DNA from: a bacterium
Lineage (GTDB): Bacteria; Patescibacteriota; Doudnabacteria; UBA920
Direction of reading: 5' to 3'
DNA length: 39,191 nucleotides
NCBI GenBank assembly: GCA_021791515.1
Contig: JAJYWK010000020.1
Coordinates: forward strand, 1-39,191
Shown: positions 96 to 31,555 of the stretch, piece by piece
How positions within the stretch are numbered: position 1 is the first letter of the stretch
Layout of the letters: every line of letters begins with the position of its first letter
Notes under the pieces: model-generated
Told to the model about the DNA's origin: nothing
Database searches by the model: none
Seen by the model: the letters and a program-made list of their open reading frames with translations, nothing else
Program-made: the position numbers and the translations under genes

Positions 96-168
96 GATTT
101 TTCCGTGCAAAGTGACCCAGGTGCTATGTGAGATTTGCACTGAAAAACTTGTTCAACCGAACAAACAT

Positions 169-198
169 AAAATCACAAGGTTTACGCCTTGTGATTTT
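169..198. terminator. Bidirectional intrinsic terminator
   Basis: aaaatcacaagg-tttacg-ccttgtgatttt perfect 12-bp stem, between tRNA and 3' end of the recombinase gene. Confidence 0.75.
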
Positions 199-313
199 AT
201 TTTGCCTAAAACTCTAATTTTTCAGTAATTCATCAATGATTTTCGTTTCGATTCCCATCTCTTCCCTTAAAGCCGGATTGCCAATGTTTTATGGTTCGTA
301 TCCCGGGTAGGTT

Positions 314-1669: not shown

Positions 1670-1882
1670 TATGTTGTTCCTTTCCTATATTAAGGCTTAC
1701 AACACAAGGAATGACGCAACCCTTTTGCTTTGTCCAGACCCCGGAAAGCTAGGGAAAATCCCTAATTTGCGCTTACCAAAAGCTAAAAAAGATGGTAAAA
1801 TATAAGCATAATTTACATATCCAACCAAGAAACTTAATGCTCATCAAACGAAGGCGTGATAATTTATAGTACGAAGAAATGT

Positions 1883-3091: not shown

Positions 3092-3092
3092 T

Positions 3093-4262
3093 ATGAAAAC
3101 AACTTTAAAAATCAACACCACCGTCAAAGATATTTGCGAAGGGTTTGTTTATAACGAACTGGAAGGTAAGGGGTTGTTCGGTTTGTCAGGCAAATTGACC
3201 ATTCAGCCTGAGTACCAGCGCAATTACATTTACGCGTCCGACGGCGGAAAAAGAGAGGTTGCCGTTATTGAATCTTTGCTAAAAGGTTATCCAATAGGAT
3301 TGCTTTATTTTAATAAGGTTTCCGAAAACAATTTGGAAGTCCTGGATGGACAACAACGCATAACCAGCATCGGGCGTTTTGTTACTGATAAATTTGTCAT
3401 AATAGATGAAAATGGGATGGAACAGTATTTTGGTGGTATGGCAAAAGACAAAAAGGCAAAAATTTTAGAAACAAAATTATTGATATATGAATGCGAAGGA
3501 ACGGAAAGCGAGATAAAAGAATGGTTTAAGACCATTAACATTGCGGGTGTTCCGTTAAATAATCAGGAACTTTTGAACGCAGTATATTCCGGGCCGTTTG
3601 TTACACTTGCTAAAGAAGAGTTCAGCAACAGCCAAAATTCTAACATTCAGAAATGGAGCGCTTATATTAGAGGCAGCGCTAACAGGCAGGATTTTTTGGA
3701 AAGTGCGCTTGGCTGGGTAAGTAAAGGTAATATCGGGGAGTATATGAGTGGCCATCGCAAAGAGAAAAATATTACCGAATTAAAAAAATATTTTAACAGC
3801 GTGATTGACTGGGTTTCCAGTGTTTTTTCCGACGTAGAAAGCGAGATGTGCGGGCTGGAATGGGGACGATTGTATGAGCAGTACCATAAAAAATCATACA
3901 ACCCGGCTAAAGTATCAGTTGAGGTGCAGAAGTTATATGGGGATCCTTATCTAAAAAACCGCAAAGGTGTTTTTGAGTACATACTTGGCGGCTCTGTTGA
4001 TACAAAGTTGTTGGATGTTCGCGTTTTTGACGAGGCAACCAAAAATAATGTGTATAAGATCCAAACCGTCGAGGCTGAAAAGAAAAGTAAGTCAAACTGT
4101 CCGCTCTGTGCCATTGGACACGATGTCAACAAAAGTAAGATTTGGAAGTTAAGCGAAATGGACGCTGATCATGTTGCAGCCTGGAGTAAGGGTGGAGCCA
4201 CTTCGGGTAAAAACTGTCAGATGCTCTGCAAAACTCATAACCGAGCTAAAGGAAATCGATAA
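3093..4262 (+). CDS. DUF262 (ParB-like) protein with C-terminal HNH endonuclease domain
   Basis: [24 protein letters not shown] (DUF262); CPLC...[32 protein letters not shown] (HNH). Confidence 0.88.
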
Positions 4263-4308
4263 TTTTGTAAAATACCATAAAAAATACGCCAAACAAAGAC
4301 TAAAAAAT

Positions 4309-7014
4309 ATGATAAAAGTGGATGAACAAATAGATACATCCGATAAAGCAATATGCAAACTTATTGAAAAATTTGGAACGGATGAGCGGGGGTTTTTGTC
4401 GCAAAATATTCTAGACAAACTTAGAACTTTTGTTGAGGCGGTTTCTGTTAAAGCAATTGGAGAAACTGAATATAGCTACGATATTTTTTCCAAGAAGGCA
4501 AAAAATCTTATTGCAGCAAGAGCTGATTTGAGATTTTTAAGTAAATTTCATAAAAGTCTCCAAAGTTCAAAATCACATTACGCTACCGACGAGGAGGTTT
4601 CTGAAAGACTAATGTTGAGATACTATGAATATTTACTTAGAATTAAATTTTTTTTAAAGTCAAAATACAATTTGGATGTCCTAAATAACATAGACAAATT
4701 TCCCATTGATACAGATCGGACTCTTAGCGAATATTACGAGAAAATAGCTAAAAAAATTAAAGAGCCAAGGCCAAGAAGCAGACTTATAAAAAGTTTCTAT
4801 ATACAAAAGATAAAACCATTTTTTGTCAATCAGGAAATATTTTATGAAGTTACTTTTAGAATAGCTGACGACAAACTTCGTAAATTTGATAGGCTCATTG
4901 CTTTTACAAGATTAGAAATAACCGAAAATTACGCCGTAGACCTTGCTATCGATAAAGATTATATCGAAATATCAAGCAAGAAAATGCCAATCCAAATCAT
5001 TAATGATTGGAAAGTTTCGATTCGCCCGTGTGAATTTAAGAATTATGAAAATATCTTTATTTCAGACGCTAAAGAATATAGCAGAACTAAAGAATATGAT
5101 GAAATAATGTCCTTTTTAACAGAAACGGGTTTGAATTTGATAGAAATAATTGATTTTCCTGATAATTACTATAATAGATTTAAAAGCAGAGTCACTCAAA
5201 AGTCTACAACGACTCGAATACTTGGTTTGTTAGATAAAAGTCGCGAATTTGTACAAAAGGGCTCTCCCGGAACCAATATACTTAGATATTTACTTTATCA
5301 CCTTAATAATAGAATTATAAAAGAACAATATAATAGAGGCGGCAATTTCAAATTATCGAACTTAAATCTTTTATATGAATGCATTCCTTTTGACGAAATG
5401 CCTTTTGCCAGCTGTCCTGTAAAACACACTCCAGTAATTTCTGATTTATTAGACTGTATAGATGCCACTGCCAGGGAACATGAATTATTTGCTCGACGTA
5501 TAACAGGTAATGCGGAAATTAAGGGGTGGTTGTACACGCCGCTTGAAGATGTTAATCATTTTGAAAATGTTAATGGGCTCCTTGATAAATTCAATAACTC
5601 TCTTTACCAAGGCACTGAAACCCAAAGGGATCGTAAACTTGAGACATACAAGGATCATATCTACATTACCGGGTACGAAAACGCCGTTATTGAAATTGTT
5701 AAAAAATTAAGAGATTTATCGACATCCGGCATAAAAAATTATTCTAATTCAATCAATGCTTGGTTATCCTCCTCGGATTCAGATGTTGATTGTTCTCAAA
5801 AAGAGACGGCGCTTAAAGAGATGTTTGCGGCATCAAAAGTATCGTTAATCTATGGTGCTGCTGGAACTGGAAAAACAAAACTAATAGAACATATTTCAAA
5901 ATACCATAATGAAAGAACAAAGCTTTATTTGGCAAATACACACTCTGCAGTGAGTAATTTAAGAAGCAGAATTATTGCTCAAAATACTGAATTTAAAACG
6001 ATAAAAAGTTTTTTGCATGAAAATAGTGACGAAGTAGAATTTGACCTTTTAATTATCGACGAGTGTAGCGTCGTAAGCAATTCAGACATGCGTGCCATAC
6101 TCAGAAAGGCATCATATGGCGCTTTAATTCTGGTTGGTGACATATTTCAGATAGAATCAATCCGATTTGGAAATTGGTTTTATATTGCAAAAAGCTTTGT
6201 TCCAGAATCATCTGTTATAGAATTAACTACACCATGGCGTGCAAAAAATAATAATGATTTGTTAAAGTTATGGGAGAAGGTCCGAAATTTAGAAGAAGAT
6301 ATGGATGAACATATTGCCAAACATCACTATTCTGCCAGACTAGATGATTCAATTTTTGAACATTCAGAAGAAGATGAAATAATTTTATGTTTAAATTATG
6401 ATGGATTTTATGGAATCAATAATATTAACAGGTTTTTACAGGAAAGCAACGATAAAACCCCGATAGTTTGGGGTGTTCACACATATAAGGTTAACGACCC
6501 TATCTTATTCAATGAATCCAATAGATTTGGGTCAGTAATTCACAATAACCTAAAAGGAAAAATATTAGATATAAAAATTTTTAAAGGAAGAATCCAATTT
6601 GATATCCAAATTGACAAATCAATCTCTGAATTAGATGTTCGTGGGTGTGATGATTTGGAGCTGTTAGACAGTTCCGAAGAAGGCGCATCCGCTATTCGCT
6701 TTAGCGTTAATGAGCATAGAAACATAGACGAGGACGATGACGATTCTGCATCTGATATTGTACCTTTCCAAGTTGCATACGCTGTTTCTATTCATAAAGC
6801 GCAAGGCTTAGAGTATGATTCAGTAAAAATTGTAATTACAAATGAGGCAGAGGAAAGAATCTCGCATAATGTCTTTTATACAGCCATCACAAGAGCAAAA
6901 AAGAAATTGAAAATTTATTGGACACCCGAGACTCAAAATAAAATAATAGGATCACTAGAGCAAAAATTCAATAAAAAAGACGCATATTTATTAAAATCAA
7001 AATTTAACCTATAG
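4309..7014 (+). CDS. SF1 (UvrD/RecD-like) helicase with long uncharacterised N-terminal region
   Basis: Walker A YGAAGTGKTKL, Walker B LLIIDECS, C-terminal VSIHKAQGLEYDSVKIVI and FYTAITRAKKKL; ORF opens at 4171 but overlaps the HNH gene, ATG 4309 likely. Confidence 0.85.
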   Translation: MIKVDEQIDTSDKAICKLIEKFGTDERGFLSQNILDKLRTFVEAVSVKAIGETEYSYDIFSKKAKNLIAARADLRFLSKFHKSLQSSKSHYATDEEVSERLMLRYYEYLLRIKFFLKSKYNLDVLNNIDKFPIDTDRTLSEYYEKIAKKIKEPRPRSRLIKSFYIQKIKPFFVNQEIFYEVTFRIADDKLRKFDRLIAFTRLEITENYAVDLAIDKDYIEISSKKMPIQIINDWKVSIRPCEFKNYENIFISDAKEYSRTKEYDEIMSFLTETGLNLIEIIDFPDNYYNRFKSRVTQKSTTTRILGLLDKSREFVQKGSPGTNILRYLLYHLNNRIIKEQYNRGGNFKLSNLNLLYECIPFDEMPFASCPVKHTPVISDLLDCIDATAREHELFARRITGNAEIKGWLYTPLEDVNHFENVNGLLDKFNNSLYQGTETQRDRKLETYKDHIYITGYENAVIEIVKKLRDLSTSGIKNYSNSINAWLSSSDSDVDCSQKETALKEMFAASKVSLIYGAAGTGKTKLIEHISKYHNERTKLYLANTHSAVSNLRSRIIAQNTEFKTIKSFLHENSDEVEFDLLIIDECSVVSNSDMRAILRKASYGALILVGDIFQIESIRFGNWFYIAKSFVPESSVIELTTPWRAKNNNDLLKLWEKVRNLEEDMDEHIAKHHYSARLDDSIFEHSEEDEIILCLNYDGFYGINNINRFLQESNDKTPIVWGVHTYKVNDPILFNESNRFGSVIHNNLKGKILDIKIFKGRIQFDIQIDKSISELDVRGCDDLELLDSSEEGASAIRFSVNEHRNIDEDDDDSASDIVPFQVAYAVSIHKAQGLEYDSVKIVITNEAEERISHNVFYTAITRAKKKLKIYWTPETQNKIIGSLEQKFNKKDAYLLKSKFNL

Positions 7015-7076
7015 GATAATCATATATTCTTTGGAATAAGGTATGGCGGTACGCAAATTTTTTAACTTGATTCCGA

Positions 7077-7124
7077 AACATAATAATAAAATGATAGGTC
7101 GACCTATCATTTTATTATTATGTT
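7077..7124. repeat. 48-bp perfect palindrome, probable bidirectional terminator/cruciform
   Basis: aacataataataaaatgataggtc|gacctatcattttattattatgtt between convergent genes. Confidence 0.9.
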
Positions 7125-7139
7125 GACTATAAATTGTAG

Positions 7140-8216
7140 TTACCTGGTTAAATTTTTGATAATTGATACAAAAGTCTCCGCCTTATCCTGCCATTCTTCT
7201 ATTGTGTATGGTATAAAATGGTCACGGTAGTTATCAGGCACTTGTAGTCCCAGTTTGGTTTCTACTTCATGCTTTAAAGCATCACGGAATTTTACGGCCA
7301 TTTCATCGTCAATCAGCCAACCGAAGTTTAAAGTCAGCTTGCCGTCGGTCCAGAGCGTGTAAACCGATTTTGTTGGGCTCACACTTTCAAATACCGCATT
7401 ACAGGAACCCTTGGCCGTACCCGAACCCCATTTAATTTCTCCGTGCGACTTGGTAAAGTCGTAGAGTTTTTTGATTATGGGAATATATTTAGCATCGGTC
7501 TGTGATTTTACTGTCTCTAGGAAACTTGCTTCGTCCCAGCGCCTTCTCGGGCTGCCCGAGCCGCTGCTGACGCTGACATCCTTTTTTACTTCCGCCCCGT
7601 ATAACTTAGGGATCATTATTTCGTATTCCTTGAACCTGTAATACTCCATTTGCACGGCATAGATATCAAACTGGCTGTTCTGGTTAACGTAGACTATTAA
7701 GTCTTTGAGCCGGTCATCCAGAGAATCCATTAAGATGACGAATTTAAGGTTGCCATCTTTGAGGTTTCTTGTCATGGAATCCAGTAGCGAGTCGATCTGA
7801 TCATCGTTCAGGCCAAAGAATTCTTTGGTCTTTTCCGAAAAACTTACCTTAAAACTACTTCTGACCTTTTCGTCCAGCACGGATTGAAATTCGCTAAAAT
7901 CACCCGTATGTTTCCAGAGGGCTGCCCCGTAATCTAGCGCTTGGGCCACCACCGTCCGTTTGTCGGGATTGCGGTATAATTTGGTTTCTACGATATAGAT
8001 ATCGCCGTCTTTGTCTACAGCTAAAGCATCAATCGGCCCGGATTCAGTGGAAAATTCACGTGCAGCCACAAACAGACGTTTGTCTTCCTCTATTTCGTAT
8101 ACTGGAATGGATTCCGGATTCTGGTGAATGTAATTTTGCAGGTAGTCTTCCTTATCAAAGTTTGCTTTTTCCACCTTCTGAGCCTGCATGCCTTTTTTTG
8201 ATACGATAATAGGCAT
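7140..8216 (-). CDS. DUF91/NucS-like PD-(D/E)XK nuclease-domain protein
   Basis: GPIDALAVDKDGDIYIVETKL...VVAQALDYGAAL: PD-x-ExK-Q type core. Confidence 0.8.
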   Translation of the reverse strand: MPIIVSKKGMQAQKVEKANFDKEDYLQNYIHQNPESIPVYEIEEDKRLFVAAREFSTESGPIDALAVDKDGDIYIVETKLYRNPDKRTVVAQALDYGAALWKHTGDFSEFQSVLDEKVRSSFKVSFSEKTKEFFGLNDDQIDSLLDSMTRNLKDGNLKFVILMDSLDDRLKDLIVYVNQNSQFDIYAVQMEYYRFKEYEIMIPKLYGAEVKKDVSVSSGSGSPRRRWDEASFLETVKSQTDAKYIPIIKKLYDFTKSHGEIKWGSGTAKGSCNAVFESVSPTKSVYTLWTDGKLTLNFGWLIDDEMAVKFRDALKHEVETKLGLQVPDNYRDHFIPYTIEEWQDKAETFVSIIKNLTR

Positions 8217-8220
8217 AGGT

Positions 8221-8472
8221 TTAATTGCCGCCTTCCGGCTTGGCGCTAACCAGCTTTGCTCCCATAGGGCTATCTGTCGGGATCATTGTTGGGTTCTTAC
8301 ATTTTGGACAAATCATTTGTTTCGTTGTTAAACGCCAAATGGAATATATTAATCCGGGAAGTATAAGAAAAAGCCAAAGGAGGATTTCTATTAAAATACT
8401 GCCTTTAGTATGTTTTTTGGGATAACCTACATACCCGCACATGGTGCAAACTTGCGTTTTTGATGTTGCCAT
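8221..8472 (-). CDS. Small membrane zinc-ribbon protein (LITAF-like layout)
   Basis: CTMCGYVGYPKKH - hydrophobic segment - CPKC. Confidence 0.55.
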   Translation of the reverse strand: MATSKTQVCTMCGYVGYPKKHTKGSILIEILLWLFLILPGLIYSIWRLTTKQMICPKCKNPTMIPTDSPMGAKLVSAKPEGGN

Positions 8473-8493
8473 TTTAAAAAGTTCCTTTCTTGT

Positions 8494-8617
8494 AGCTGGT
8501 AACGGGCTTATGTAAACACAAGGCCGCCCGCCAGCTGGAACCTTTCGGTTCCCATATCAGTTTCCCGATATGGCCCGACAAAGAGCGCTGGACGGACGGT
8601 CCAGTATCTTTGTCGGG
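8494..8617 (-). ncRNA. Candidate structured RNA / 5' leader of the zinc-ribbon gene: four consecutive hairpins
   Basis: 8494-8536 agctggtaacgggc/gcccgccagct; 8537-8552 ggaacc-tttc-ggttcc; 8552-8573 ccatatc/gatatgg; 8574-8617 cccgacaaag...ctggac/gtccag...ctttgtcggg. Confidence 0.55.
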
Positions 8618-8740
8618 TCTTTCTTTCACCATGCCAAAGTATTATCTTTGGTTTAGGCTACTTTTATAAATTGTTAATGTAATTATACCTAAAATTCCTT
8701 TATCCTTCAACCAATTGTAGCTGGGCAGGCTCAAAATACC

Positions 8741-8767
8741 CTTGTAAATCCTTAATATTTTTACAAG
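8741..8767 (-). terminator. Hairpin downstream of the terminase gene
   Basis: cttgtaaa...tttacaag. Confidence 0.45.
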
Positions 8768-8808
8768 CCAAGGATGCCGCAAAGGGCAAACAAAGTCCAG
8801 GAAGTTCG

Positions 8809-10290
8809 CTATATGCCGAAAACCTCAGGAGTTGCCGGTTTCTTATTCTTGCCTGCCATAATTTGGTTTACCAAAATGGCAAAGGCATCGGCTAAGTCGT
8901 CATGTTTTTCCACGCCAAAACCTATCAATTGCTGTACCAAAAATTCCGCTCCTTTTTTTGGGAATAGCACCGTACCTTGCTTTACATGCGGGCTGGTGAT
9001 CCTCAATCTCTCTTCCTTGTCCTGGCCGCAGACTTTGAATTCTTCGGCCGGGTAGCCTTCTTTCTGAAGCTGCTGTGCCAGCGCCGGTTGGTAGCCGACG
9101 GATTCTATAACAAGCCTGCTTCTTTTGCCTTTCATAAAAGACAAAGAGATTTCCTTGGCTTTGGTCAGCGTTTGGGGAAAATCCAGCCTTTCGTTGATCG
9201 GGTTCGGCAGGATGTAAATTTTCATCTGGTCGCCCCAACCGAACACGTAAGCCGAAACCATTGCCGTGTAATCTGCCGAGGTTTTGACCGAGATTGCCAA
9301 ATCTATTCCCGTAATGGCAAACCGAAAAGCATTTTTCGGATTCCTTCTATCCGGCAAATTTTCGTAATAACGAATCCATTCCGGCCTGATGACTGCGTTT
9401 TCCCGCTGAACCGGTATTAGCAAAAATTCCTGGTTCCAGGCAGCCTCGTTGCCGATTTCTTTTTTCAGCTTATCGATAGCTTCTGCATCGGGATATTTTC
9501 CGGGCCAAAGGGAATTCCCGTTTTTGTCCAGCAAAGGAAAGGCTCTGTATACGCCTTGCAGCATTCTTTCCTCAATTTCCTTTTTAAGGCGCATTATCAG
9601 GCTGTCCATATGCAATATTGACCCGGCCACTACCAAACGAGCTCCCGTCTCCCGGACCGGCATTAGGTCGTTTTTAATCCATCCGTAAAGCTTGTCGCGG
9701 CCTTCCAAAGTCTTTACCGAATTAGAATCCTCCAAGTCGTCGCAGATTATCAGCTGGGGCCTCATGCTCCCGTACCTGATACCGCGAATGCTCTGTTCGC
9801 TGGAGACGGCCATAATCATTGCATTATGCTTGGTTAGGACTATGGCGTTGCTGCGCCACACGTCGTCTTCCCGAAACGGCCCCATGTCGGATTTCAGCAA
9901 ATCGTTTTTGACCAGTTCGTCCGTAAGGTTTTTCATGTAAAGCCTGGCTTGTTCCTGGGTCTTGCCGACAATCAGGATGAACTTGTATTTCGGCTTGCCC
10001 AGCACGGCCCACAGCGGATACGAAAGGCAGAATATGGTGCTTTTGCCGGAATGGCGGAAGGCAGGTACGACCAAATGCCCTAAGCTGAAATCTTCGGTCA
10101 AGGCGTAAATCTCCCGGTGGAAATCCGGAGTGGAACATTTGACGTAATGGGCAAAGTAGAAATGGAAAAACCAAAAATGGCTTTGGGAAGTAATTTTTGT
10201 CCTAAGCCTGCGGTCTTTCACCATCAGGCTTATCAGGTCCTGCTGGGGATTGTTTGCTGGTGTCTGCATCGCTGCCTCCCAAGGCGGCAA
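8809..10290 (-). CDS. Phage terminase large subunit
   Basis: Walker A FRHSGKST, Walker B LIICDDLED, RNase H-like nuclease ITGIDLAIS ... KHDDLADAFAI. Confidence 0.88.
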   Translation of the reverse strand: MPPWEAAMQTPANNPQQDLISLMVKDRRLRTKITSQSHFWFFHFYFAHYVKCSTPDFHREIYALTEDFSLGHLVVPAFRHSGKSTIFCLSYPLWAVLGKPKYKFILIVGKTQEQARLYMKNLTDELVKNDLLKSDMGPFREDDVWRSNAIVLTKHNAMIMAVSSEQSIRGIRYGSMRPQLIICDDLEDSNSVKTLEGRDKLYGWIKNDLMPVRETGARLVVAGSILHMDSLIMRLKKEIEERMLQGVYRAFPLLDKNGNSLWPGKYPDAEAIDKLKKEIGNEAAWNQEFLLIPVQRENAVIRPEWIRYYENLPDRRNPKNAFRFAITGIDLAISVKTSADYTAMVSAYVFGWGDQMKIYILPNPINERLDFPQTLTKAKEISLSFMKGKRSRLVIESVGYQPALAQQLQKEGYPAEEFKVCGQDKEERLRITSPHVKQGTVLFPKKGAEFLVQQLIGFGVEKHDDLADAFAILVNQIMAGKNKKPATPEVFGI

Positions 10291-10717
10291 GCTCTAAAGC
10301 CTTGCGCACTAATTGTTCTTGTTCTGGCGTCAAAGCTTCGTCATTGTTCTCCAGTTTGGCCTTTACTTCCAGCTTGGTGGCATAAGCCGGATGTCTGGAC
10401 TTCAGCCAGAAGGCAATGGCGGAAAATTCCCTGTCCTTGATGCAGGACAAAAGCTGGGACTCTGCCAAATCATTCATCAGGGCAGTGCCGTCATTAACAG
10501 CCTGTTCCACCGCTTCGGCAAAATTCCTGTCGTCTTTTTTCCACCTGTAGAAAGTCGCCCGGGCAATTCCGACTCTTTCGCAGGCAGCCTGAACGATTGG
10601 CAATTTCTTTAATTGCTCAACCAAAGCTTCTTTCTGCCTGTCTTGCCGCCCTTCCACTGCGCCCTTGCCTTCTTCCGGTTCGGGCAAGGCTTGAATCTCC
10701 GAATTAAGATGCTCCAT
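10202..10717 (-). CDS. Helix-turn-helix protein, probable terminase small subunit
   Basis: IVQAACERVGIARATFYRWKKDDRNF HTH; overlaps the terL start. Confidence 0.7.
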   Translation of the reverse strand: MEHLNSEIQALPEPEEGKGAVEGRQDRQKEALVEQLKKLPIVQAACERVGIARATFYRWKKDDRNFAEAVEQAVNDGTALMNDLAESQLLSCIKDREFSAIAFWLKSRHPAYATKLEVKAKLENNDEALTPEQEQLVRKALELAALGGSDADTSKQSPAGPDKPDGERPQA

Positions 10718-10721
10718 AAGA

Positions 10722-11510
10722 TTATTCCTTTCCTCCCGTGATTTTTACTGCCTTAAACCCGCTAAGATTTTCCCATCTGTTAATGATTGTGGCGCAATAT
10801 TCGGCATCCGCTTCCACGGCAAAGCATCGGCGCTTAGTCTGCTCGCAGGCAATAATCGCGGTACCCGATCCGCAGAAACCGTCAAAAACTATGTCACCGA
10901 CCTTTGTATTGTTTAGAATTAGGCGGCGTATCAAACTGACTGGCTTCATGGTCGGATGCAAAGCGCTTTTGTTCGGCTTTGGGCAAACCAAGACAGATTT
11001 GTCTTTGGCTTTAACGAAAGCGTGGCTGCCATGCCAGCCGTAAATTATCAGTTCGTGCTGGAGCAGATAGTCCTTGCGCCCTATGACCGAATGGTTTTTG
11101 ACCCAAATAAGTAGCTGGGAGAATTTAAAACCCGCCAGCTCCAGGCCGTCCTTTAGCGCAAACAGCATCCGGTCGCAGTTAAATATGTAGGCGCTATTTT
11201 TGGCGGCAAGGTAAGGCGCAATTGCATTGAGCCACTCTTTGGTGAATCTGGCGTAAGACTCTTCTGACACTTCTTCGTCATTGGCAATATCTTTTGCTTT
11301 CTTTACTTTGCTGAATCCCGCCTTGCTTTGGGCATACGCCACGCCATAAGGGGGATCGCAATTGATAGAGATAATCCGCTCGCTGCCGACAAGGCGCTTG
11401 AGCAGTTCCTTGTCGCGGCAATCACCGCAGGCAAGCCTGTGCTCGCCAAGCTTAAAAATATCTCCGGCTTTAATTGAGCTTAACCGGTTTTTGTCCCGTG
11501 AGTTTTGCAT
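10722..11510 (-). CDS. Site-specific DNA methyltransferase (N4/N6 amino-MTase)
   Basis: NCDPPYGVAY and VFDGFCGSGTAIIACEQTKRR. Confidence 0.88.
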   Translation of the reverse strand: MQNSRDKNRLSSIKAGDIFKLGEHRLACGDCRDKELLKRLVGSERIISINCDPPYGVAYAQSKAGFSKVKKAKDIANDEEVSEESYARFTKEWLNAIAPYLAAKNSAYIFNCDRMLFALKDGLELAGFKFSQLLIWVKNHSVIGRKDYLLQHELIIYGWHGSHAFVKAKDKSVLVCPKPNKSALHPTMKPVSLIRRLILNNTKVGDIVFDGFCGSGTAIIACEQTKRRCFAVEADAEYCATIINRWENLSGFKAVKITGGKE

Positions 11511-12765
11511 ATCTATCGAGAGTTAATTGTACGAAGGCTGGCGTGATGTCAGCCATGAATGCCCTGCGCTTTAGTTGGTCGCAGGCGACCATAATTGAGC
11601 CGCTGCCTGAAAAGATATCAAGCACGATGTCGCCGGGCTTGGTGCAGCGGCGCAAGGCTTTTTCGTGCAGGGTCGGCGGCTTTTCCGTGGCATGCGTGTA
11701 TTTGCTGGCAGAAAGCCGCTTGACCAGCCAGATGTTGAGCAAATCTAAAATATCGTCATGCAAGCGGTTGCCCGAGCTGACTTCTTTATTTAAAACTTCG
11801 TTAAGGTTTTTCACGTTTTCGTTAAGGTAGGGCTTGCCGATTACGCCGTAACTGCAAAATTCCGTTACCTTGTTGAACGCGATTTTGGGCGTCGGATTTT
11901 GGTTGTCCTTGATCCAAATACAGGTACGCTTGTTTTGGATATTAAGATAGCCGAAAATCTGCTGGATCAGTCCGGTGTAAATTTCGTCTGACCAGACGAA
12001 GAAATGGCAATCCGGATAACACACGTCCAGAACGTTCTCTATGCAGCCGGACAGGAAGCGCTCATATTCCGCCCGCGAACGGCTGTCCTCCACGGCCTCG
12101 CCGCCGTAGTTGCGTTTACCACCTATGCCTTTGCCGTAATCCAAGGAAATATTATAGACAGGATCCGTATACAGCATGGAAGCATGCTCCTTGCCCATGA
12201 GCTTAAGTACGGTGTTTGGGTCTTGCGAATCTCCGCAAATAATTTTATGCGGACCAAGCTGGAAAACATCCCCGAGCTTGATGTCCGTATCCTTGGCTTT
12301 CTCCAAAGCTTTCTTTACGTCAAAATCATCATCTTCAACCTCAAGCGATTCGTCCCAGATTGAGGACAAATCCGCATTGTCAAAACCGACATCCATTAGC
12401 AAGTTGATGTCGAATTCCTTAAGTTTTTCCCAGTCCCACCGGCCCGTGTTCCGGTTTAAGCGTAAATTAAGTTCACGCTCGCGCTCTTCTTCGGGAATAT
12501 CCACAAACACGCAGGGTACCTCCTTGTGCCCGAGCTGCTTTAGGGCTTCCAGTCGCATATGCCCGCCGATCACGTTATTTTTCCGGCTAGGCGCTCCGTT
12601 AATGATTAAAGGGTCCAGCATACCGTATTTGGAAATGCCGGTTTTGAGCTGATCCATATCGGCCTGTTCCCAGCCTCTTGGATTGTACAAGGCTGGTTTA
12701 AGCAGTTCTATTGGAACCTGAACTATTTGCAAGCCCGCAGGCTTGGTAATTTTAGTAGTTTTCAT
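11470..12765 (-). CDS. ParB N-terminal domain fused to DNA methyltransferase
   Basis: ParB-like YNPRGWEQADMDQLKTGISKYG...VIGGHMRLEALKQLG; MTase YTDPVYNISLDY and VLDIFSGSGSIMVACDQLKRRAF. Confidence 0.85.
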   Translation of the reverse strand: MKTTKITKPAGLQIVQVPIELLKPALYNPRGWEQADMDQLKTGISKYGMLDPLIINGAPSRKNNVIGGHMRLEALKQLGHKEVPCVFVDIPEEERERELNLRLNRNTGRWDWEKLKEFDINLLMDVGFDNADLSSIWDESLEVEDDDFDVKKALEKAKDTDIKLGDVFQLGPHKIICGDSQDPNTVLKLMGKEHASMLYTDPVYNISLDYGKGIGGKRNYGGEAVEDSRSRAEYERFLSGCIENVLDVCYPDCHFFVWSDEIYTGLIQQIFGYLNIQNKRTCIWIKDNQNPTPKIAFNKVTEFCSYGVIGKPYLNENVKNLNEVLNKEVSSGNRLHDDILDLLNIWLVKRLSASKYTHATEKPPTLHEKALRRCTKPGDIVLDIFSGSGSIMVACDQLKRRAFMADITPAFVQLTLDRYAKLTGQKPVKLN

Positions 12766-14003: not shown

Positions 14004-14008
14004 AAAGC

Positions 14009-14038
14009 GGCCTGAGCTAGATTTTTCTAGTTCAGGCC
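14009..14038 (+). terminator. Intrinsic terminator
   Basis: ggcctgagctaga-tttt-tctagttcaggcc. Confidence 0.75.
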
Positions 14039-14069
14039 CTTTGTCCATTGAAAGTATAACATAACCTTT

Positions 14070-14483
14070 ATGGAAAACAAAATTAAGCATCTGGAGTTTA
14101 TCCAGCAGACAATTAATAGGGTGGCTGGCAACTCTTTTTTGCTCAAAGGTTGGAGCGTAACCCTGATTGTTGGCATATTTGCGCTTTCAGCTAAAGATTC
14201 CAATACGCACTACATTTTGCTGGCATATTTTCCCACATTCCTTTTTTGGTTTTTGGACGGCTATTTCCTTCAGCAGGAAAGGCTGTATAGATCGCTCTAT
14301 GACGAAGTCAGAAAAAAAGAGGAAAACCAAATTGATTTTTCCATGAATGCTCAGATTTTCGTGGAAAAAGATAAAAGGAACACATGGCTCGAGTCAACGT
14401 TCTGCTCCAAGACAGTAGCGGCTTCTTACGCCGTGTTGATAACGATCTTATTTGTCGTTATGGTATTCACCATTAATAAATAA
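14070..14483 (+). CDS. Membrane protein with about three TM segments, first gene of the TIR operon
   Basis: Hydrophobic stretches GWSVTLIVGIFAL, YILLAYFPTFLFWFL, SYAVLITILFVVMVF. Confidence 0.75.
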   Translation: MENKIKHLEFIQQTINRVAGNSFLLKGWSVTLIVGIFALSAKDSNTHYILLAYFPTFLFWFLDGYFLQQERLYRSLYDEVRKKEENQIDFSMNAQIFVEKDKRNTWLESTFCSKTVAASYAVLITILFVVMVFTINK

Positions 14484-14487
14484 ATTT

Positions 14488-15126
14488 ATGGCTCATAAAG
14501 TATTTTTTAGTTTTCATTTCAAACGCGACGCTTGGCGTGCCGGACAGGTGCGGAATAGCGACCTACTGGCTGATGAGGATGAATACGGCGTTATTGACGG
14601 TGTTGAATGGGAGAAACTTGAACGCGAAGGTTCAGAAGCAATCAAGCGCTGGATCAACGACCAGCTTAAATATACTTCCGTAACGGTAGTGCTCATTGGG
14701 GCGGAAACCGCGGGCCGCCCGTGGGTCAATTATGAAATTCGCAAGAGCTGGGAGCGCGGAAATGCTATTATCGGTCTCCGTATTCATAACATAAAAAACC
14801 AAGATAGCGAAACTGACATGCCTGGCCCGGATCCTTTAGATTCAATCCAGCTGATTGACGGCACCAAGCTTTCCTCAATCTGCAAAACTTACGACTGGAA
14901 CACAGACGACGGCAGGAAAAATCTTGGGAAATGGGTAGACGAAGCGTTTCAAGCCAGGGAAGAATATACCGGAGAAACAAAATTGAAGGAAGAGGAAGCT
15001 CGAAAGACCCCAAACGCTTCCCCTTCGCAGGCTTTTGCCCCCAGAGCAACTTCTCAAAATTTTCAGACGCAAGGCGCATTCCAGCCTCGCGCTCCGTGGG
15101 GTGATAATGCTAACGGAAGAAGATAA
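14488..15126 (+). CDS. TIR-like (DUF1863/ThsB-like) protein with low-complexity C-terminal tail
   Basis: KVFFSFHFKRDAWRAGQVRNS...VTVVLIGAETAGRPWVNYEIRKSWERGNAIIGLRIHNIK; ORF opens at 14452, ATG 14488. Confidence 0.85.
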   Translation: MAHKVFFSFHFKRDAWRAGQVRNSDLLADEDEYGVIDGVEWEKLEREGSEAIKRWINDQLKYTSVTVVLIGAETAGRPWVNYEIRKSWERGNAIIGLRIHNIKNQDSETDMPGPDPLDSIQLIDGTKLSSICKTYDWNTDDGRKNLGKWVDEAFQAREEYTGETKLKEEEARKTPNASPSQAFAPRATSQNFQTQGAFQPRAPWGDNANGRR

Positions 15127-15808
15127 TAAATGGCTGAGCCGATATTATCCTAATCTTACCGTGGGCCGCGATATAATTTCCGGCACGGTTGAATTTGTCG
15201 CGACCTACAATAAGGAAACAAACCAGTTCCTCATTTTACGGGATGGGATAGCTGATTCGGTCGGTGGCCTTAGGCTGACCGGGAAATTTGGCATTAGAAT
15301 CAAGGAACGGGAGGACAAAACCTTGTCCAAGCTTCCGGCACTGTTTGTGGATGATGTGCAGCCCATTCCGGATCGCCATTTCGGACAAAAAGATTTTAGT
15401 GCCTGCCTTTGCAGCCCCCTCGAAGAAAGTGAATTTTTAATCCCAGAATTTCAATTCAGGAATTATTTTGAACAATTGGTCATTCCCTTTTTATATGGCC
15501 AACTTTTTTATTCGTCTGAAAAGCATTGGCCATGGGATGAATACCAGCATGGCGGCATCGGCTTATTGCAGTCCTATTTTCAAATTGCCGAATTGGTCAC
15601 TGAAAAAATAATTAAAGAATTTTTGTCTTATCTAAAGCAGGACAAAAATTGGAATTTGTATAAAATGGTTTTGTTTTTGCGCAGGCCGTCGAGACAGGGT
15701 TGCCCATGCGGTTCTAATCGCGAATTTAGGGATTGCCACCCAGAAGCCTTGAAAGGACTGGCTAGATTGAAGGCTGATATAAGCAATCTTTCAGTCAATA
15801 TAGATTAA
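15107..15808 (+). CDS. E2/UBC-like candidate domain with C-terminal SEC-C metal-binding motif
   Basis: SGTVEFVATYN...PALFVDDVQPIPDRHFGQKDFSACLCSP...WPWDEYQHGGIGLLQSY (E2-like layout); CPCGSNREFRDCH (SEC-C); ATG 15107 overlaps the TIR stop. Confidence 0.6.
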   Translation: MLTEEDNKWLSRYYPNLTVGRDIISGTVEFVATYNKETNQFLILRDGIADSVGGLRLTGKFGIRIKEREDKTLSKLPALFVDDVQPIPDRHFGQKDFSACLCSPLEESEFLIPEFQFRNYFEQLVIPFLYGQLFYSSEKHWPWDEYQHGGIGLLQSYFQIAELVTEKIIKEFLSYLKQDKNWNLYKMVLFLRRPSRQGCPCGSNREFRDCHPEALKGLARLKADISNLSVNID

Positions 15809-15812
15809 AGAT

Positions 15813-16571
15813 ATGGAAAAAGATGTAATTGCGATTCATATTATGAACCCACAATGGACAATAAAAGCCCAACCGCCCTTAAGAATTTTCAAAGGAGGGC
15901 ACCAAGCGAAAGCTGGCGAATGGTTTTTGGAGGTTCAGCGAGTCTTGTTTGACATTTACCAATCCTTTAAAGCGATAGAAAATTTTATCAATCGCGGTAA
16001 TCAGGATTTGTTTGTAGGAAAAAACAAGACCAAAATTGAGATTTCCGATACGGACAGAACATGGGTTCTTGGTTATGTAATAGATAATGCTTATTTAAGG
16101 ATTGATTCATGCTTAGACAAAATTGCCCAAATGGTACTCGTGCATTATAACCATCCAAATCATGGAGGTGATTTATTGTTGCAACAAAGATGCGGCAAAT
16201 GTCCGCCGTCAACAATGACTGAAAAAAACTGTACTTTTGGATCGCTCGTCAGAACTCTACATGAAAACGGAAGGGACTCAGAAATCGATAATGCTCTTTT
16301 TTCACTGGAAGAAAGCAAAATCTTAGCACAGGCAAAAAAAGCGAGGAACAATATATCACATAGGATTAATAAAAATATTTTTTATCCCGGTCTTGATCCT
16401 TCTATAAAACTAGAAATTTCGGGGGACATCCAGAGGACCACATTTATTTTCGGAGAGAAGTTGCCGTCTATAAACGAGTACCGCCATCTAATTGCCGACG
16501 CTCATAATGAAATAACTCAGCAATTAAATATAATCGGACCAATAATTTTTCCTGCAGCCAAAAATTATTAA
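15813..16571 (+). CDS. HEPN-domain protein (Cthe_2314-like candidate), putative RNase
   Basis: R-x4-H motif in AKKARNNISHRIN, predominantly helical sequence. Confidence 0.6.
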   Translation: MEKDVIAIHIMNPQWTIKAQPPLRIFKGGHQAKAGEWFLEVQRVLFDIYQSFKAIENFINRGNQDLFVGKNKTKIEISDTDRTWVLGYVIDNAYLRIDSCLDKIAQMVLVHYNHPNHGGDLLLQQRCGKCPPSTMTEKNCTFGSLVRTLHENGRDSEIDNALFSLEESKILAQAKKARNNISHRINKNIFYPGLDPSIKLEISGDIQRTTFIFGEKLPSINEYRHLIADAHNEITQQLNIIGPIIFPAAKNY

Positions 16572-16614: not shown

Positions 16615-17151
16615 ATGAACAATGAGCATGAATTGGTGGTAAAGCCGCTTATCAAATGGTTTAATAGCCAAAAAGCTAATTGGCAACTTGATTGTCCAAA
16701 ATATCCAACTGCTGCCACTGGATGGGATTTGCAAGCGAGGCGTAAAAATCAGGATCTTTTAATAGAGGCTAAGTACATTACCGGAAGGTTTATTTCTTAT
16801 TTTTCCGGAATGGTATGCGCCCCGATGTCCAATAAAAAGCAGTCGTTCATGAAAAGAAAAAGCCACGGCTGGAACGAGGGGGTTTGCTGGGCTATTGGCA
16901 CGTCGTTTAAAACAAGGGATGTATTTCAAATATTGCTTGATTATCTTTCGAGAAATATAGAATTTTGGATTTTCTACGGTAACCATTTCCGTATGAAGTA
17001 TATATTTTTTATAAGCGACTCAAAAGTTAAAAAAATAAATTGGACAAAACTGATCCAAATAGCTGCTAAATATTTAGATGTTCAAAATCAAAAGAAACTC
17101 AATTTATTAGAGCGAAGGGTCTTGGCAGCTAAACTTATGAAACTAACTTAA
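16615..17151 (+). CDS. PD-(D/E)XK nuclease-like protein
   Basis: TGWDLQARRKNQDLLIEAKYI: D-x(n)-E-x-K core. Confidence 0.6.
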   Translation: MNNEHELVVKPLIKWFNSQKANWQLDCPKYPTAATGWDLQARRKNQDLLIEAKYITGRFISYFSGMVCAPMSNKKQSFMKRKSHGWNEGVCWAIGTSFKTRDVFQILLDYLSRNIEFWIFYGNHFRMKYIFFISDSKVKKINWTKLIQIAAKYLDVQNQKKLNLLERRVLAAKLMKLT

Positions 17152-22047: not shown

Positions 22048-23433
22048 TTACAAGGATGCGAGTTTTGTTGCCAGGCCGGTGTAATTTTCCGGAGTAAAAA
22101 TTTTTAGCTCTTTTTTTACTTTATCATTTACATCAAGAGAATCAATAAACTGATGCAAATCTTTCAGCGTAATTTTTTTGCCGCGGGTGAGTTCTTTAAG
22201 TTTTTCGTACGGCATTTTTACCCCCTCGCGCCGAAGCACGGTTTGAATGGCTTCGGCCACCACCTCGGGATGATTATTTAAAACCTCGCGTACTTTTTTT
22301 TCATCAACAGTAACTCGACTGAGGCCCTTAAGCAGATATTCATAGGCAATAAGGCAATGGGCGAGAGCGGTGCCAAAATTCCTTTCCACGGTGGAATCGG
22401 ATAAATCCCTTTGCAGGCGGGAGATTGGCAGTTTGCGGGCAAAAAATTCAAACAAAGCGTTGGCCAGCCCTAAGTTGCCTTCGCTGTTTTCAAATTTAAT
22501 CGGGTTGATTTTGTGCGGCATAGTGCTGCTGCCTACCGCCCCTTCCCGCGGTCTTTGCGCAATCCATTCATCGCTAATGTAGCGCCACATATCCTGGTTA
22601 AAATCTATTAAAATGCTGTTAATGCGGCGCAAAGCGTCAAAAATTTCTATGTAGGAGTCGTGCGGCTCGATTTGAGTGGTGTGGAGGTTAGCTTCAAGCA
22701 TGAAACTTGAAGTATGAAGCTTATTGAGTTGAGCGATGAAGTTTTTTGAAAATTTAATCCAATCAACTTTTGGGAAAGCGGCCACTGCCGCGTTGTAGTT
22801 GCCGGTGGCGCCGTTTAATTTGACCGATATTCCAACATTCTCAAGAATGTGAGATTGTCGTTTTAGCCTTTCCGCAAAAACTTTAAACTCTTTGCCAAAG
22901 GTGGTGGGGGAGGCGCTTTGTCCGTGCGTGCGGGCAAGCATGGGCAAGGAATGATATTTTTTAGTTAGATAATTCAATGATTTTATAATTTCTTGAAGTT
23001 TGGGCAGAATTATTTTATCTAAGCCCAGTTTTAACATCAATCCGTAAGCCAAGTTATTGGTGTCTTCCGAAGTTAGAGCAAAATGGGTAAATTCCAAAAC
23101 GTCTTTCAGTGATGTTCGGCTTAATTTATCTTTAATAAAATATTCCACCGCTTTAACGTCGTGGTCAGTGGCTTTAATATTTTTGTAGCCTTTGGTTTCA
23201 ATATTGGAAATAATTTGCGCGTCAGCGGCTGATAAATTGTACAAAGCGCGGATAATCTTTTTTTCTTTGTCGGAGAATTTGCGGACTAATTTAGCATCAG
23301 CAAGCGCGATTAAATATTCGCCTTCTACGATAATTCTATATCGCATAAGCGCGGATTCGCTAAAAAACGGAGCTAAAGGTTCTGCGGTTTTGCGGTAGCG
23401 TCCGTCTATGGGGGAGATGGAAGATAAAGACAT
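22048..23433 (-). CDS. purB: Adenylosuccinate lyase
   Basis: GSSTMPHKINPIKFENSEGN signature, SPIDGRYRKTAEPL. Confidence 0.96.
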   Translation of the reverse strand: MSLSSISPIDGRYRKTAEPLAPFFSESALMRYRIIVEGEYLIALADAKLVRKFSDKEKKIIRALYNLSAADAQIISNIETKGYKNIKATDHDVKAVEYFIKDKLSRTSLKDVLEFTHFALTSEDTNNLAYGLMLKLGLDKIILPKLQEIIKSLNYLTKKYHSLPMLARTHGQSASPTTFGKEFKVFAERLKRQSHILENVGISVKLNGATGNYNAAVAAFPKVDWIKFSKNFIAQLNKLHTSSFMLEANLHTTQIEPHDSYIEIFDALRRINSILIDFNQDMWRYISDEWIAQRPREGAVGSSTMPHKINPIKFENSEGNLGLANALFEFFARKLPISRLQRDLSDSTVERNFGTALAHCLIAYEYLLKGLSRVTVDEKKVREVLNNHPEVVAEAIQTVLRREGVKMPYEKLKELTRGKKITLKDLHQFIDSLDVNDKVKKELKIFTPENYTGLATKLASL

Positions 23434-23445
23434 AGGTGTTAGGGT

Positions 23446-24423
23446 TTAGGTGTTAGGGTTAAGTAAGAATGAATAAAGATTTTTTTCCATTCTTTCCAAA
23501 ATCGGGGTGTTTAAATCGGCTTCAAATTTATCTCCTGTAAGTTGCTCATAAATTTGAATGTAGCGGGAAGCAAGCTCGGCTATCATTTCCGCCGGCGCTT
23601 GGGGCAGAACTTCGTCTTTGTAGGGGTCGCAGTTTTCCTTAAACCACAGCCTTAGAAATTCCTTGTCAAAATATTCCGGCTCTTTTCCTTCGTTAAACCT
23701 TTGTTGATATGTATTAAGCTTCCAGTACCGCGAGGAATCCGGGGTGTGGATTTCGTCTATCAGCATTAGTTCTCCCTTATTATTTAGCCCGAATTCGTAC
23801 TTGGTGTCAACCAGTATAAGGCCGTTTTTTTCCGCGATTTCCCGCCCTCTTTTAAACAGGGCCTTGGCGGTTTTGGATAAATTTTCCCAAAGCTCCGGTT
23901 CAACAATTTTTTCGCTGATAATTTCTTTTGGAGTAACCGGCTTGTCATGCACGTCGGATTTTGTGGTTGGGGTTAAAACCGGTTCGTCTAATTTTTGATT
24001 TTTTTTCATGCCTTCGGGCAAAACAAAGCCGCCAAAATCGCGCTGGCCCTTTTGATAGTTAGTCCAGAGCGCGGTGTCCGTAACTCCGGTAATATAGCCG
24101 CGCACCACCATTTCCAGCGGGATAACCTGGCATTTTCGCGCCACCACCGCATTGGGGTCCGGCACGTCCAAAATATGGTTTTTTACAATGTCTTTGGTTT
24201 GCTCAAACCACCAACGGCTGATTTGCGTTAAAATTTGCCCCTTAAAAGGAATATGGGCAATAATGCGGTCGAATGACGAATGCCTGTCTGTGGAGATGAG
24301 AATTAATTTATCGTCTTGAATATAAACGTCGCGCACCTTGCCGACTTTTTTTTGCCCAAGATTTTGAAAATTGGTTTCTTTAAGCACGCGGTTGATATTT
24401 TTTTCGATTGTGGTTTTTTCCAT
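23446..24423 (-). CDS. purC: SAICAR synthase
   Basis: GKVRDVY, ISTDRHSSFDRIIAHIPFKG, PLEMVVRGYITG, LVDTKYEFG. Confidence 0.96.
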   Translation of the reverse strand: MEKTTIEKNINRVLKETNFQNLGQKKVGKVRDVYIQDDKLILISTDRHSSFDRIIAHIPFKGQILTQISRWWFEQTKDIVKNHILDVPDPNAVVARKCQVIPLEMVVRGYITGVTDTALWTNYQKGQRDFGGFVLPEGMKKNQKLDEPVLTPTTKSDVHDKPVTPKEIISEKIVEPELWENLSKTAKALFKRGREIAEKNGLILVDTKYEFGLNNKGELMLIDEIHTPDSSRYWKLNTYQQRFNEGKEPEYFDKEFLRLWFKENCDPYKDEVLPQAPAEMIAELASRYIQIYEQLTGDKFEADLNTPILERMEKNLYSFLLNPNT

Positions 24424-24437
24424 AGGTTTATTATTAT

Positions 24438-24502
24438 GTCATCCTGAACTTGTTTCAGGATCCATTTTTTATTTATGGATTCCGAAATAAATTCGGAATG
24501 AC
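24438..24502. repeat. Compound palindromic intergenic repeat
   Basis: gtcat(cctgaacttgtttcagg)atccat...atggat(tccgaaataaattcgga)atgac. Confidence 0.85.
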
Positions 24503-24509
24503 CAAACAG

Positions 24510-25649
24510 CTATTCCCCCGGGGGAGTTAATGTTATTTTATTCGGTTCAAAAATAGTTTGGCGTATGCCGTCTTCCACAACTCCAACATCCGCCAATTCA
24601 TACCCGGCCTTTTGTCCAAGCGACAGAATCGCATCAACCTCGCCGGCCGGGGCATAAATATAGTAGCCCGCGCCCCAGTTAAAGGTTTTTAGGCAGTCTT
24701 GGAGCTCAACCCCAATTTGCTGATGAAAGAATTCCATCAGCGGCGGAACTTTAAGCCAGGAGTGGATGCGGTAAGTAAAGGCGCGTTTGTCAAAAGCGAT
24801 TTTTCCCACGCCGTCGCCGGTGCCGGGCAGTAGCGCGTGGATTTTAATTTTATTTTCCAGTAGGATTTCTATTAGTCTTACGTAAGAACGGGTAGGGATT
24901 AAAGCTTCCTCTCCCAAGGTGTGTCCGTTTGGCAGTTTGGTTAAAAATTGTTCTTTTAGTTCAAGCCCCTTTTTAATTACTAACGAAATACCGTTGGCGT
25001 GAAGGCCGGAGGAAGCGACGGCGATAATATGGTCGCCGGCTTGTAAGTCCCGCCCCGTAATTAAGTTTTCTTTAGGAGCAATTATGCCGGTAACCGAACC
25101 GGAAAGCGTGGCGATTTGTTTAACCGGAGGCTTTGGATTAATTAAATAGGCGCAACTGGCGCTTTCGCCGGCCGGCAGGGCCATGCCGACTTCTTCGCAA
25201 ATTTTTACCAAGCCGCCCGCAAAATCCTGCGCGCGTTTTTTATCCGCATACCAGCCGCTACTGCTTGCTTCCAATTGGTCGTTAAAAACCACAGGCATGG
25301 CGCCCTGGGCAATCACATCATTCACTACAATTAACGCGGTATCTATCGCAATGGCATCGTAATAAGTTTTGTCGGTATTTTGGTACATCCATTCGGCAAT
25401 CCAGTTTTTGTTGCCCAAGTCTTCCTGGGTTTTGCACCAAATGTGCGGCTGATTGCCTCTATATTCAAACACCGCGCCGTGAGCATGAATGGCGTCTTTA
25501 ACTATGTAGACATCCCGTTTTTCCGGGAAATGCAAAGTTTTTTTGCCAGCCTCAATCATGGCCATTTTAAACGGCTCCATAATGCTGTAATCTACCCCGG
25601 ATTGTGCGTATGCGCTTTTCATCGCGTTATTGATATTTCTTATACCCAA
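24510..25649 (-). CDS. purM: AIR synthase (phosphoribosylformylglycinamidine cyclo-ligase)
   Basis: [42 protein letters not shown]. Confidence 0.93.
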
Positions 25650-26133
25650 CCTTTTTTAACTTGTCCGCTTTGGCATTAACGGCTTTGGCCATGGTTTTTT
25701 TGTAGTCAGCAAATTTTTTCATCAGCTTATTATCAGATGTCGCTAAAATTTGCACAGCTAACAGAGCGGCGTTTTTGGCCCCGTCCACACCTACGGTTGC
25801 CACCGGAATTCCGGGCGGCATTTGCATTGTGGAAAGCAGAGAGTCGATTCCATCGAGGTTTGATTTTATAGGCACGCCAATAACTGGTAGGGTGGTAAAC
25901 GCCGCCAATACACCGGCCAAGTGCGCGGCACCGCCGGCTCCGGCAATAATAACTTTTAGTCCGCGTTTTACAGCATCAACCGCGTATTTATGCGCCCGGT
26001 CTGGCGTTCTGTGCGCGGAGCAGACTGTAATTTCAAAAGCCACGCCGAATTCTTCCAAAACCTTGGCCGCTTCCCGCATGACTTTTAAATCGCTGTCACT
26101 GCCCATTAAAATTCCTACTAGGGGTTTGTTCAT
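25627..26133 (-). CDS. purE: N5-CAIR mutase / AIR carboxylase
   Basis: [40 protein letters not shown]. Confidence 0.96.
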
Positions 26134-26174
26134 ATATCTACAAAACTACAAATTTCCACGAATCCTACGAATGA

Positions 26175-26579
26175 CTACAAATGCTCCGCAGGATTCCGCA
26201 GATTATTAATATTTAAAATTCTTTTAGGATTAATTCTTTTGTCCCTAAAATTTACCAATAATCCCAGTTGATAGCCGGTTTGGTATAGATATCTTTTTAT
26301 CTGATCGTAGTGCTCGGAAGTGATAAACGGGGCTGTTTTAAATTCTATTATGATTTTACCATCTATATCAAAATCCGCAATGTTGCCGGAGTCGCCAATT
26401 CTTAATTCTCTTATATATGAAATTTTGTTTTCTTTAAGTTTTTGTTCAAACCAGTCGCAATATTGCTTTTCCCGAGCAAAAGAGCCCAGTTCTTTTTGCG
26501 CCCGCATCATTAAACCTACCAGCTGATAACTTAAATCTTTATATAATATTTTTTCTTCCGGGTTTGAATTTGTAGTCAT
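26175..26579 (-). CDS. GxxExxY protein (PDDEXK-like)
   Basis: LIVEFKTAPFIT-type core (IIEFKTAPF), LGLLVNFRDKRI; GxxExxY-family organisation. Confidence 0.85.
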   Translation of the reverse strand: MTTNSNPEEKILYKDLSYQLVGLMMRAQKELGSFAREKQYCDWFEQKLKENKISYIRELRIGDSGNIADFDIDGKIIIEFKTAPFITSEHYDQIKRYLYQTGYQLGLLVNFRDKRINPKRILNINNLRNPAEHL

Positions 26580-26603
26580 TTGTAGTTTCGTATCATTCGG
26601 AGA

Positions 26604-27272
26604 TTAGTAGCAATTAAGTTTTTTAATAATCGGAATCAAATCTTTCATATTATGGATTAAAAAGTCTGGTTTGTGTTTTTTGAGACGGGCGGTGGAATTA
26701 TATCCGCCGGTAATGGCCACGGTATGGTAGCCGTATTTTTTACCGATTTCAATTTCTTCCTCCGTGTCGCCGACTGTTAGTATTTCCTTTGGCTTTAAAT
26801 TATTTCTTTTTATATAGTCTAATAGTTTCTGTTCTTTGTTTCTAAAATGCACCTGGGTATGGCCATCTTCTACCGAGCGGGCGAGGACTTCGTCAAAGTA
26901 TTCAAAAATATTAAGGCGCATTAATTGTTTAATGATATCAGGAGCAATATGGTTGGAATAAATCATTCGTTTTATCCCGTACTTTTTTAACCAACTTAAA
27001 AGCGGTTTACTGCCTGCGCGAGTACGTGTTTTATTTGCGTGAGTCTCATAGAGCCGGTGAAAATTTTTCGATTGTGCATCTAAATCTTCGGTTTTCCCTT
27101 TATGTTCCAGCCAAAAACGTGAAACTGGAATATGAAAAGTTTTTTGAAACTGCGTAAGAGATATTTGTTTAAGCCCAAATTTTTTAAAATTAAAATTAGA
27201 AGCCCTAAGATTAACTTGGGTGTCGGCTAAAAGTGTTCCGTTCCAGTCAAAAGCAATTAATTTTATAGCCAT
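26604..27272 (-). CDS. HAD-family hydrolase (phosphoglycolate phosphatase-like)
   Basis: IAFDWNGTLLADTQ, MIYSNH, TVGDTEEEIEIGKKYG. Confidence 0.88.
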   Translation of the reverse strand: MAIKLIAFDWNGTLLADTQVNLRASNFNFKKFGLKQISLTQFQKTFHIPVSRFWLEHKGKTEDLDAQSKNFHRLYETHANKTRTRAGSKPLLSWLKKYGIKRMIYSNHIAPDIIKQLMRLNIFEYFDEVLARSVEDGHTQVHFRNKEQKLLDYIKRNNLKPKEILTVGDTEEEIEIGKKYGYHTVAITGGYNSTARLKKHKPDFLIHNMKDLIPIIKKLNCY

Positions 27273-27307
27273 AAAATTTTCTACTAAATACGAAAGTAGC
27301 TAAATTA

Positions 27308-28618: not shown

Positions 28619-28690
28619 ATATTTTCTACGAAATACGAAATGATCGAAATACGAAAACTATTATACTCACGAAAACGACAGCTAGAAAAA

Positions 28691-29725: not shown

Positions 29726-29809
29726 AATGAAAAATGAAATATCAAAATGTAAAATTTAGGTGTCGCTTTACGACTCTATAATTTTGATTTTTGACTTTTA
29801 AATTTTAAT

Positions 29810-31288: not shown

Positions 31289-31336
31289 AATTAAACTCCT
31301 ACGAAACACGAAAGAAACGAAATACGAAATTAAGAT

Positions 31337-31540: not shown

Positions 31541-31555
31541 ATCTTTTATTGTTAA

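Follow-up and report, generated by a model that had tools for sequence, protein, structure and literature searches.

Four tightly packed genes in a Patescibacteria genome raise the question of whether they form a defence system of their own, as an earlier note had proposed, or whether they bring together parts that are also found in other combinations. That note described a candidate undescribed system made of a three-transmembrane (3-TM) protein, a TIR-like protein, an E2-like protein with a SEC-C domain and a HEPN protein. Our analysis of the window (the whole stretch of 39,191 nucleotides, to which all positions refer) upholds the defence setting of this operon and indicates that it is probably an E2-equipped Thoeris-like variant, in which a PDC-M50 pair is joined by an E2 of the kind found in E2-only CBASS, the E2 acts on a Pro-Trp (PW) tail of the TIR, and the TIR signals to an effector. 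The host genome, of a Patescibacteria lineage, spans 1.17 Mb and is 97.7% complete in 70 contigs; the assemblies are metagenomic.

The TIR and E2 genes and their relatives

All four ORFs are co-directional on the + strand, and reading their coordinates verified the order and the spacing exactly as first noted: a 4-bp gap between genes 1 and 2, a 20-bp overlap between genes 2 and 3, and a 4-bp gap between genes 3 and 4. Gene 1 (14070..14483, +; 137 aa) matches the PADLOC PDC-M50A model (5e-51) and contains three hydrophobic segments by hydropathy (residues about 21–42, 49–67 and 110–137). These are fitted by the long helices of its AlphaFold model (pLDDT 80.7), in agreement with its description as a multi-TM protein, and we infer that it is a membrane effector. 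A Foldseek comparison of the model with the PDB found no structural relative.

Gene 2 (14488..15126, +; 212 aa from ATG) was identified as a ThsB-like, Thoeris-type TIR by matches to Pfam ThsB_TIR (E 1.2e-22), to the PADLOC ThsB (1.2e-60) and PDC-M50B (6.5e-60) models, and to the ThsB entries 6lhy/9b7d of the PDB (1.2e-25), which corroborates the original assignment. The TIR core covers residues 1–158 approximately, with a Glu83 (W-V-N-Y-E) that is invariant in the TIR alignment, and is followed by a C-terminal extension (residues 159–212; 14962..15123, +) that ends in AFQPRAPWGDNANGRR and constitutes a putative E2-recognition tail. The M50A/TIR pair recurs in bacteria, archaea and viral contigs (seven loci on viral contigs, one on a haloarchaeal plasmid and five in other Patescibacteria), and no homologues of the E2 or the HEPN were detected in the loci of these recurring pairs. 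At a further locus (L054) a close relative of the TIR adjoins ThsA, not M50A, and TIRs of this family are therefore common to Thoeris and PDC-M50. A search for close relatives of the TIR in phages found none.

Gene 3 (15107..15808, +; 233 aa from ATG) matches the PADLOC CBASS E2 models (1.5e-24) and carries a C-terminal SEC-C domain that scores slightly below the Pfam cut-off. A profile of 17 E2 sequences matches the eukaryotic E2 structures 2h2y (9.6e-6) and 2fo3 (5.9e-5), and its alignment to the PDB falls on the H...C catalytic segment (H...CL). Invariant across the 17 sequences are His91, Cys100, His148, Gly152 and the SEC-C cysteines C199, C201 and C210. Since both His91 and Cys100 are invariant, Cys100 of the "CLC" motif is the candidate catalytic cysteine. 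The AlphaFold model of gene 3, which was built from a shallow alignment of four sequences, has a pLDDT of 71.7 with low values at the active site, and Foldseek returned no E2-fold match, so the assignment to the UBC/E2 fold rests on sequence profiles. The profiles and the invariant residues agree with the initial reading of gene 3 as E2/UBC-like with a putative catalytic Cys plus SEC-C; judged by its sequence, gene 3 is a SEC-C E2 of the accessory family in E2-only CBASS. Scans of viral contigs with the E2 gave no match.

When the E2 query was scanned against 85,462 species genomes, the nearest relative (46%) was found in Candidatus Acidiferrum (Acidobacteriota; locus L035), in the gene order ThsB-E2-ThsB2-ThsA. 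There, the gene of a 206-aa ThsB-type TIR shares 20 bp with the E2 gene, as in the window, and a full ThsA (SIR2 + STALD; ThsA 626 bits, STALD 209 bits) lies 3' of the second ThsB-like TIR. This operon content places the same E2 subfamily within a genuine Thoeris operon of a different phylum. The Acidobacteriota locus has no 3-TM gene and the window has no ThsA: neither the SIR2–STALD form nor the type II TM-macro form was seen among the ORFs adjoining the window TIR. These two are the TIR–E2 loci found here (n=2). Other relatives of the E2 lie directly after CD-NTases (eleven loci, among them L036 in a Candidatus Doudnabacteria genome, of the same order as the window genome), directly after a Pycsar cyclase with a PycTM effector (L005), and directly after MBL-fold proteins (L032, with a TM protein, and L037, with a patatin).

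The Pro-Trp tail and its possible role

The link between the TIR and the E2 can be read at the C-terminus of the TIR, where the codons CCG TGG (15094..15099, +) encode a Pro-Trp. The tail of the window TIR (~54 residues) ends in QPRAPW-GDNANGRR and that of the L035 TIR (about 50 residues) in APRSPW-CPSYVERKR; PR(S/A)PW is common to these two E2-linked TIRs, and neither a tail nor a PW was found in 25 related TIRs without an E2. The same dipeptide marks other E2 partners. In the first set of loci, all intact CD-NTase partners (11/11) end in PW plus 2–4 residues (e.g. KPWCSL, QPWSY, KPWRT), the PycC of L005 ends in RPWLKRS, and the MBL proteins of L032 and L037 end in KPWQRG and KPWLNG, respectively, giving 1/3 for PycC, 2/2 for MBL proteins and 2/2 for TIRs.

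Scoring PW within the last 12 residues of complete proteins of >=100 aa in the retrieved loci, we found that all 16 proteins with PW near the C-terminus are encoded by the gene immediately upstream of the E2. The motif thus occurred in 16 of 19 E2 partners vs none of 376 other proteins (Fisher p about 8e-26, a value that overstates independence and is too optimistic because the loci are related by descent); the 19 partners include one IS-broken locus and two acidobacterial PycC without PW, which were counted against the motif. Among held-out loci, PW was present in two of three partners (RPWGN and QPWSSNGRCWL; the third ends in GSWCASK). With these included, 18 of 21 intact E2 partners carry PW, followed by 2–9 residues, and because its distance from the C-terminus varies, an end-anchored alignment would miss the motif. 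The partners without PW are two PycC (L050/L051) and one CD-NTase (L092), and the motif was absent from all Patescibacteria CD-NTase loci without an E2 (0/21).

The two PycC exceptions occur in Acidobacteriota loci (L050:1408-3466 and L051:1408-3469), in which PycC-like tandem cyclases precede a SEC-C E2 and end in SFVPSSSFAE and SFVPSKSFAE. We also considered that the TIR tail might be a frameshift product arising after PWG, with a TGA stop in another frame. This explanation is not needed, because in L035 the 20-bp overlap is preserved and the tail ends in much the same way, and because a CD-NTase at L091 has PW plus nine residues and again a 20-bp overlap.

We propose that the E2 would bind the PW tail of the TIR, whereupon Cys100 would attack the chain near PW and free the last few residues (or a thioester would be formed otherwise, without an E1). 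The TIR would then be joined to a lysine, most likely on another TIR, and the resulting TIR chains would promote the oligomerisation on which TIR NADases depend. Since TIR NADases act as oligomers, the logic of E2-built chains carries over naturally to a TIR. Upon phage infection, the TIR would make an ADP-ribose-type signal from NAD, which would open or activate the 3-TM effector and thereby lead to membrane damage; ThsA would take the place of this effector in the Acidobacteriota relative, and the HEPN would be an optional extra at most. No ThiF/E1 or JAB match was found in the window genome, making an E1-free route likely, and the E2 chemistry presumably proceeds in this way, though a missing E1 is no proof in an assembly of this completeness and number of contigs.

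Part of this evidence would also suit an E2 that is a non-catalytic or thioester-only regulator, which would dock on the PW tail, keep the TIR inactive (or sense phage) and form no covalent conjugate. PW could serve as a plain docking peptide, the residues after it vary in length and sequence and offer no terminal Gly/Ala of the kind that E1-dependent Cap2 needs, and the lack of an E1 match is in keeping with docking. We nevertheless consider such a regulator unlikely: the invariance of His91 and Cys100 across the 17 E2s argues for catalysis, and conjugation by the related E1–E2 protein Cap2 has been demonstrated (PMC10097602).

The HEPN gene and the surroundings of the operon

Gene 4 (15813..16571, +; 252 aa) matches Pfam HEPN_Cthe2314 (E 6.1e-11) and contains R-x4-H at residues 178–183 (R178, H183), family match and motif together confirming that it encodes a HEPN protein (Cthe_2314-like). 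A homologue was found in 0/289 other Patescibacteria genomes, plasmids gave no match, and no HEPN lies beside the TIR–E2 pair of L035 or any PDC-M50 pair seen. Because it occurs in no other tested locus, the HEPN appears to be a passenger or an optional toxin and no conserved part of the system. These absences make it very improbable that the four genes constitute a complete system with the HEPN as an essential RNase effector triggered together with the TIR and the E2, even though gene 4 shares the strand, follows after only 4 bp and has its R-x4-H intact.

The earlier note's undescribed four-gene system is accordingly unsupported. Our neighbourhood survey showed no conserved co-occurrence of the four genes, the pair of genes 1 and 2 being present elsewhere without genes 3 and 4. 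Genes 1 and 2 correspond to the PDC-M50 candidate, an independent pair in other loci, the E2 belongs to the E2-only CBASS family, and the HEPN is unshared; we therefore rejected the four-gene unit. It is scarcely credible, on the other hand, that genes 1 and 2 are an autonomous PDC-M50 with genes 3 and 4 as chance-placed remnants of another system on a mobile element, for although PDC-M50 forms a stand-alone pair elsewhere by gene content and the window lies within a recombinase- and terminase-bearing element, a second phylum shows both the PW tail of the TIR and the 20-bp overlap of its gene with that of the E2, and TIRs without an E2 carry no tail.

Inspection of the surroundings revealed several further features. 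Positions 21-12765 hold a tRNA-Asn and, after it, a gene resembling a serine recombinase, an EcoRI-like adenine methylase and an HNH/DUF262-like gene, as well as a helicase, terminase-like genes and two ParB/methylase-type genes; this region, which adjoins the operon, is likely to be a mobile or prophage-like element that has integrated there. Directly 5' of gene 1, a GC-rich inverted repeat (14005-14045; GGCCTGAGCTAG...CTAGTTCAGGCCC), absent from the consensus-scan list, is possibly a terminator that divides the operon from a LexA-like gene. On the other side of the operon, positions 16615-17151 encode a 178-aa protein without a family match that has a PD-(D/E)xK-like segment (GWDLQ...LLIEAKY) and is a possible nuclease. 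Farther away (22048-35401) lies a near-complete run of purine biosynthesis genes (purB, C, M, E, D, N, F, Q, L-like), which is notable for a Patescibacteria genome of 1.17 Mb.

Relation to known defence systems

Bacterial immunity is tied to ubiquitin-like conjugation through Bil. Another such tie involves CBASS cyclases (PMC10097602, PMC11153139). The presence of the tag and E2 pair beside unrelated signalling enzymes suggests a shared plug-in switch. More broadly, and with somewhat less than even confidence, we suggest that the PW tag and its cognate, E1-independent SEC-C E2 could form a transferable regulatory cassette of at least four unrelated classes of signal enzyme (CD-NTase, Pycsar cyclase, TIR/ThsB and an MBL-fold enzyme, as yet uncharacterised, that is accompanied by patatin or TM effectors), in which the E2 would behave as a sortase-style transpeptidase, cutting near PW and concatenating the enzyme to switch on signalling. 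If true, conjugation would be a general switch for signalling-based defence, working through one short C-terminal motif. PW would then be a two-residue, mutable handle on the action of an E1-less E2 and on the activation of TIR NADases, and also a sequence rule for spotting further systems.

The link between an E2 and a TIR appears to be new. The strongest findings, which the earlier note could not see, are the PW tail on the TIR and the recurrence of this E2/PW pairing across CBASS, Pycsar, MBL and Thoeris loci. Our literature search, which extended to papers outside subscription, found none that links an E2 with Thoeris or Pycsar. The PW motif in CBASS may already have been described by Yan et al. 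in 2024. In that study, the E2 of an E2-only CBASS reportedly processes the C-terminus of the cyclase, makes a Cys conjugate and links cyclases into chains.

Among characterised systems, type II CBASS with Cap2/Cap3 resembles the proposed mechanism in that an E2-like protein acts on the C-terminus of the signal enzyme: in CBASS cyclases, Cap2 (E1–E2) attaches the C-terminal Gly/Ala to lysines (PMC10097602, PMC11153139). The window differs from it in that neither an E1 nor a JAB is detectable in its genome, the C-terminus of its TIR is not Gly/Ala, and its motif lies upstream of the end; for other CBASS architectures, PMC10097602 reported that no C-terminal residue is conserved. Cyclase–cyclase conjugation has been proposed for an E2-only system, according to a mention in PMC11153139. 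E2-only ("type II short") CBASS shares with the window the E2/SEC-C family, the position of the E2 directly after the signal enzyme and the PW on that enzyme, but the window has a TIR in place of the CD-NTase; no CD-NTase occurs in the operon, and the cyclase model PDLC00823 has no match in the genome.

Pycsar with an E2 offers a similar likeness. On a Chryseobacterium plasmid (L005:2389-4510), an operon of PycTM and a PW-bearing PycC has an added SEC-C E2; it differs in having a nucleotide cyclase where the window has a TIR, and the E2-linked PycC of L050/L051 are without PW. The MBL loci (L037:2848-5774 and L032:1399-3850), each with an MBL-fold protein ending in KPW-x3 followed by a SEC-C E2, represent a candidate uncharacterised system, with the patatin phospholipase or the TM protein as a possible effector.

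Two further comparisons are with PDC-M50 and Thoeris. As in the PDC-M50 of PADLOC, genes 1 and 2 are adjacent M50A and M50B matches; PDC-M50 is, however, an unvalidated two-gene candidate without an E2, whose TIRs are untailed and about 145–170 aa long, whereas the window TIR has a 54-aa tail and an overlapping E2 gene and is thus part of neither a two-gene nor a tail-less arrangement. With type I Thoeris the window shares a TIR of the ThsB family that has the conserved Glu83, and its nearest TIR–E2 relative sits inside a ThsB-ThsB2-ThsA operon; it departs from Thoeris in having the 3-TM protein in the place of the effector, together with the added E2 and the tail on the TIR.
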